The notes beneath the pieces are model-generated. The model was given only the letters and a program-made list of their open reading frames with translations. It searched no databases and was not told the origin of the DNA. From Chloroflexia bacterium (lineage in GTDB: Bacteria > Chloroflexota > Chloroflexia > Thermomicrobiales > UBA6265), in NCBI GenBank assembly GCA_013697005.1, contig JACCXM010000002.1, positions 1 to 41,069 on the forward strand: a stretch of 41,069 bases of DNA. The letters are read 5' to 3'. Position 1 is the first letter of the stretch. Every line of letters starts with the position of its first letter. Below, one piece after another: positions 6,118 through 6,234 of the stretch. The position numbers and the translations under genes are program-made.

Positions 6118-6234
6118 GAGGACTGGCCAGTGGTGCCGGTCTCCTGGACCGGCATCCAATTACAGCCCACTGGAATCTCCGCCGGCAACCCGGCCCGCGA
6201 CGCGCCACCGCCAACGCCGCTCCCAATGCGATAG
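6118..6234 (+). pseudogene. C-terminal remnant of a second copper amine oxidase
   Basis: Frame reads EDWPVVPVSWTGIQLQPTGISAGNPARDAPPPTPLPMR*, aligning with [38 protein letters not shown] of the 3008-4969 gene. Confidence 0.88.

Follow-up and report, generated by a model that had tools for sequence, protein, structure and literature searches.

In the stretch of DNA analysed here (the window, 41,069 nucleotides, contig C203 of a Thermomicrobiales MAG), an inverted gene for an MBL-fold/rhodanese fusion lies immediately behind an intact copper amine oxidase gene (CAO) and is flanked on both sides by the CAO 3' end in direct orientation, as one copy that is still coding and one that has decayed. 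The best-supported reading of this locus is an insertion of a known kind that carried an unusual cargo: a single insertion that duplicated its target, leaving the CAO 3' end as a long direct repeat, probably explains the whole arrangement. The coordinates of the features discussed below are collected in Table 1.

Table 1. Features of the locus in the window, followed by the other repeat pairs mentioned in the text (positions within each locus).
Feature	Position	Strand	Remarks
SBP1	1519-2886	+	
CAO, copper (primary-amine) oxidase	3008-4969	+	Intact; putative insertion host; Pfam Cu_amine_oxid 3.4e-155; NCBIfam PRK11504 primary-amine oxidase above cut-off
Left repeat copy, CAO 3' end	4818-4931	+	Still coding; direct repeat with 6106-6220
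MBL-fold/rhodanese fusion	4981-6102	-	Putative inserted gene; predicted persulfide dioxygenase-rhodanese, PRF type; Pfam Lactamase_B and Rhodanese
Right repeat copy, decayed CAO 3' end	6106-6220	+	Peptide 6118-6231, stop 6232-6234
MBL Shine-Dalgarno, AAGGAGG (plus-strand CCTCCTT)	6111-6117	-	Sequence reading; at or inside left edge of remnant
Terminator-like hairpins	6269-6289	-	Between upstream minus-strand gene and remnant; consensus scan only
Hypothetical secreted-type protein	6311-6994	-	Next gene, outside repeat-flanked unit; ORF list
MalG-type permease	11095-12000	+	First conserved far-side gene; 86% identity to G001 (L014)
L065, CAO, amidohydrolase cargo	4851-4916 / 6389-6454		66 nt, 88-89%; Dehalococcoidia MAG
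L063, M13 peptidase, cargo DUF3368 (toxin-like) gene	14430-14547 / 15367-15484		118 nt, 84%; family-mate G015
L066, RarA, cargo small ORF and aspartyl protease	11418-11492 / 12305-12380		76 nt, 89%
L192, NUDIX, two genes between	4457-4576 / 6374-6493		120 nt, 96%; G045 second replicon
L200, GNAT	4732-4856 / 6637-6761		125 nt, 77%; G045 second replicon
L132, mycobacterial repeat pair	3627-3695 / 4853-4921		
L139, mycobacterial repeat pair	11059-11121 / 12285-12347		

The two copies lie on the same strand and align at the DNA level with 78% identity over 115 nt and one 1-nt gap, with a score of 63, while 100 shuffled sequences reached 23 at most. The peptide of 38 aa encoded in the right copy matched only two places in its own genome, itself and the C-terminus of CAO, the latter with 67% identity over 33 residues, ungapped (E 4.6e-11, own genome searched), and the part of CAO that it matches is limited to residues ~602-640. 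These scores rule out a chance match as the origin of the remnant and confirm that positions 6106-6220 repeat, in direct orientation, the final ~115 nt of the CAO gene. The first-pass annotation, which had recognised the CAO C-terminus in 6118-6234 and had described direct copies of CAO 3' sequence on either side of the minus-strand MBL-rhodanese gene, was right on both counts, the far copy being a decaying remnant. It had also placed the beginning of the remnant within about 15 nt of the Shine-Dalgarno sequence of the MBL gene; this can be refined, as the Shine-Dalgarno sequence abuts or overlaps the copy. Homology from the remnant through the Shine-Dalgarno sequence to the MBL start codon was suggestive only (p 0.06), and homology beyond 6220 toward the CAO stop was not significant (p 0.13). 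Differences from CAO are unevenly distributed, with one in the first 28 nt of the right copy and 21 in the other 74 (Fisher p 0.006); as a guess, the low divergence of the first part may reflect constraint as the leader of the MBL gene.

The 1.1-kb interval between the copies (4970-6105) contains exactly one gene according to the ORF list and Pfam, the inverted MBL-rhodanese gene, whose stop codon is 11 nt from that of CAO; no transposase or integrase was found in this interval with the same two sources. The best PDB matches of the encoded protein in a sequence search were 3tp9, an MBL-rhodanese protein, and BpPRF (5ve3/5ve4), a PDO-rhodanese fusion, and it shares with them the order of an MBL domain followed by a rhodanese domain, also evident from Pfam. 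This likeness concerns the function of the cargo only, which is predicted to be of the persulfide dioxygenase-rhodanese type and to act in sulfur handling. The gene starts with an ATG at 6102, 8 nt from the Shine-Dalgarno sequence, and its orthologues begin at the same Met. A consensus scan gave terminator-like hairpins at three sites in the region, where chance alone would produce 0.8; if real, those at 6269-6289 separate the MBL gene from the next gene upstream, so that its promoter would be located in 6103-6268, and we infer that it probably lies within the remnant or in the short spacer behind it. A scan of the MBL leader gave no sigma-70 consensus promoter, a consensus that is uninformative for this phylum. 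The next gene upstream encodes a protein with no Pfam or NCBIfam match, and is one of two adjoining minus-strand genes (6311-7531) for hypothetical proteins in which the N-terminus is followed by very basic stretches rich in Lys, Arg and His; no family was found for the first, and the second has a weak Cys-rich STIG1-like match only. There were no Rfam or tRNA matches in the window, and an RNA or tRNA attachment site was therefore discarded as the insertion target.

The same site was compared in two genus-mates (G001 and G003), a family-mate (G015) and more distant lineages (G008, G041 and G045). In G001 the order is SBP1 fragment, CAO, a short toxin-antitoxin-like stretch (judged by ORF sequence alone), MalG, SBP2, MalF and IlvD, with MalG closely behind CAO. 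The window keeps the order CAO-MalG-SBP2-MalF-IlvD, with extra genes between CAO and MalG: the MBL gene, the remnant, two hypothetical genes, a rhodanese gene and a LuxR-type regulator. The order in G003 is CAO, VOC and IlvD. Relatives devoid of the MBL gene at the CAO site thus exist, as G001, G003 and G015 have a single CAO 3' end there, with neither the MBL gene nor a remnant downstream, and no CAO remnant was found downstream of CAO in G045, G041 or G008 either. In G001 and G003 other genes are present between CAO and the conserved flank, and none of the relatives has a clean empty site. Of the SBP located upstream of CAO in G001, just the C-terminal ~127 residues are left, next to an inverted SDR gene (L014 7959-8339; L062 8492-8872), which makes it another 5'-truncated remnant.

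The MBL gene is mobile. Its orthologue in G001 (84% identity) is found on another contig, between a sorbosone-dehydrogenase-like gene (Sorb) and a TPR gene, and in the genome of the window Sorb and TPR are adjacent on contig C365, and neither the MBL gene nor a remnant of it separates the two. No neighbouring gene was common to the MBL orthologues of eight genomes, which, along with the relocation with respect to G001, indicates that this gene relocates frequently, and at the CAO locus it is most likely the more recent arrival. None of the MBL orthologues examined has a CAO remnant upstream, which led us to reject the remnant as a conserved upstream region of the MBL gene.

We propose that, on the branch leading to this Thermomicrobiales genome, a piece of ~1.1 kb carrying only the MBL-rhodanese gene would have entered behind CAO in a single event that duplicated ~115-150 nt of the target, corresponding to the last ~40 CAO codons. 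One copy of the target would have remained with CAO, which would thus stay intact, and the second would have landed on the far side of the cargo where, free of selection, it may have decayed by 22% and become the 5' leader of the inserted gene, probably with its promoter. Insertion with long target duplication has been described for restriction-modification genes (PMC1643837, PMC3874152, PMC3031569), with duplications "in the order of 100 bp" (PMC3874152), and corresponds to the work of Nobusato, Uchiyama, Ohashi and Kobayashi (2000), as cited in PMC1643837 and PMC3874152. As in those cases, there is no transposase and direct target copies of ~100 bp (here 115 nt) flank the insert; unlike them, the cargo here is a metabolic MBL-rhodanese gene, the copies have diverged by 22% and the target is the 3' end of a gene. 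DNA duplication associated with inversion (Furuta et al., 2011, as cited in PMC3874152) also resembles this locus in the short gene-end duplication at a rearrangement. Some facts count against insertion with target duplication: the relatives compared above offer no clean empty site, the copies, which should have been identical at birth, are now 22% different, the founding examples carry restriction-modification rather than metabolic genes, and the position of the remnant as sister of its own CAO, detailed below, is the best but not the exclusive one.

The origin of the remnant was addressed by comparison with CAO genes of relatives. Its identity was highest to its own CAO (78%), followed by those of G003 (75%), G015 (74%), G001 (70%) and G008 (59%). 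In a likelihood test the remnant was best placed beside its own CAO and attachment to the distant G008, G041 and G045 lineages was rejected, while the AU test kept other positions inside the genus and family (p 0.09-0.24). Derivation from the second CAO of G001 (contig C46) was dismissed, since the remnant is 67% identical to its own CAO and only 52% identical to that one. The sliding identity of the intact CAO to its relatives showed no abrupt change toward the 3' end, leading us to discard a chimeric CAO as well; this, together with the remnant being nearest to its own CAO, is as expected for a duplication. Differences between the remnant and its own CAO are distributed by codon position as 6:7:9, and those between the own CAO and that of G001 as 3:2:14. 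This contrast, although not significant over the 102 bases compared (p 0.058), suggests drift, with little or no time as a functional gene.

The interpretation offered in the first-pass annotation was an ancestral tandem of amine oxidases whose second member gave way to the inverted gene. On this reading the MBL gene would have taken the place of the first ~93% of the second of two full, adjacent CAO genes. The two direct copies of CAO 3' sequence are compatible with it, and the SBP paralogues at 1519 and 12009 show that duplication does occur in the window, yet we consider a tandem unlikely. Adjacent CAOs were present in none of 61 genomes of the order and two CAOs in none of 80 GTDB loci (flanks up to 9 kb), so that no genome with two intact tandem CAOs turned up in either set, and between 4970 and 11095 there is no CAO sequence beyond the remnant. 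The codon-position pattern hints, not significantly, that any functional life of the copy was short. G001 has a second CAO that is distant from the first, at a contig end, and the two partial CAO matches in G050 correspond to contig ends (L019 end and L018 start) whose overlap of exactly 99 nt falls within this same 3' segment of CAO, resembling an assembly-graph branch. A tandem would need a full duplication, a deletion and an insertion, whereas fewer steps lead to this anatomy if one insertion duplicated its target; the tandem is therefore unnecessary and not supported.

Homology-facilitated illegitimate recombination is a known mechanism that could also produce this anatomy in one event, and with divergent copies that require no long decay: an incoming CAO 3' part with the MBL gene would cross into the resident CAO and the far side would be joined illegitimately, leaving the resident 3' end as the remnant. 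This route appears quite improbable, given that the identity of CAO to its relatives is unbroken near the 3' end, that the remnant is nearest to its own CAO and not to other lineages, and that divergence from G001 is equal for the MBL gene (84% identity) and the resident genes CAO (83% identity) and MalG (86% identity).

Returning to insertion with target duplication, we analyzed if its anatomy recurs elsewhere. A direct-repeat survey of 3.2 Mb, comprising 2.0 Mb of loci with hexamer-model gene calls and 1.2 Mb from G045, G049 and G008, revealed five more loci with an intact gene, a cargo and a duplicated 3' end, all of them direct and all at gene 3' ends (Table 1); the extra 1.2 Mb gave no further clear case. 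Locus L065, one of the 80 GTDB loci, is an independent analogue in the order CAO, amidohydrolase, CAO 3'-end remnant and dipeptidase. Its close relative L078 has the same cargo with a different spacer sequence and without the remnant, so that remnants can be lost or added separately, which counts against the insertion reading. One of the two cargo genes of L192 is an apparently truncated Ldh_2, and the GNAT host gene of L200 was recognised by ORF and Pfam, not by the gene caller. The survey showed no clear 5'-end counterpart and, among inverted 3'-end copies, nothing comparable to the six loci, and inverted duplication was discarded on this basis; in the inversion-associated duplications mentioned above the copies are reportedly inverted, and here they are direct. 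A 183-bp repeat in the genome of the window (L162) was rejected as a scar and corresponds to two small paralogous HhH proteins. A contig-edge repeat of 238 bp (95%) was noted in the extra sequence (L251), and two mycobacteria share, downstream of CAO, two genes that are enclosed by a pair of intergenic repeats of ~65 bp. The 3'-end bias, seen in all six cases (two-sided sign test, 0.03), is suggestive, and its cause may simply be that the host gene stays intact when its 3' end is the part duplicated.

The 3' ends of genes are frequent insertion sites of integrative elements, which keep the host gene intact and leave the displaced 3' end on the far side. Site-specific integration of an element with the CAO 3' end as attachment site, followed by loss of the integrase, would fit with all six loci being gene 3' ends, but is highly improbable in view of the lack of an integrase in this or the other cargos examined, the lack of an exact, conserved core repeat, the distribution of the six host-gene loci over five unrelated families and the small size of the cargos (~0.8-1.8 kb, a single gene in the window).

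Single genes often appear at new sites without a visible vehicle. If insertion with target duplication accounts for loci such as this one, the second copy of the 3' end, beyond the cargo, is a scar that can be searched for cheaply and by which such insertions could be dated and oriented, and the loci described here hint at 3'-end scars as general marks of single-gene insertions. It is conceivable, though doubtful, that a widespread route free of transposases drops single, non-selfish genes behind others, with a 3'-end scar of ~70-125 nt marking these insertions across bacteria and then acting as leader and promoter of the newcomer. Should the 3'-end bias prove true in a proper survey, it would show how genes beyond restriction-modification or toxin-antitoxin modules enter the chromosome and gain a leader.
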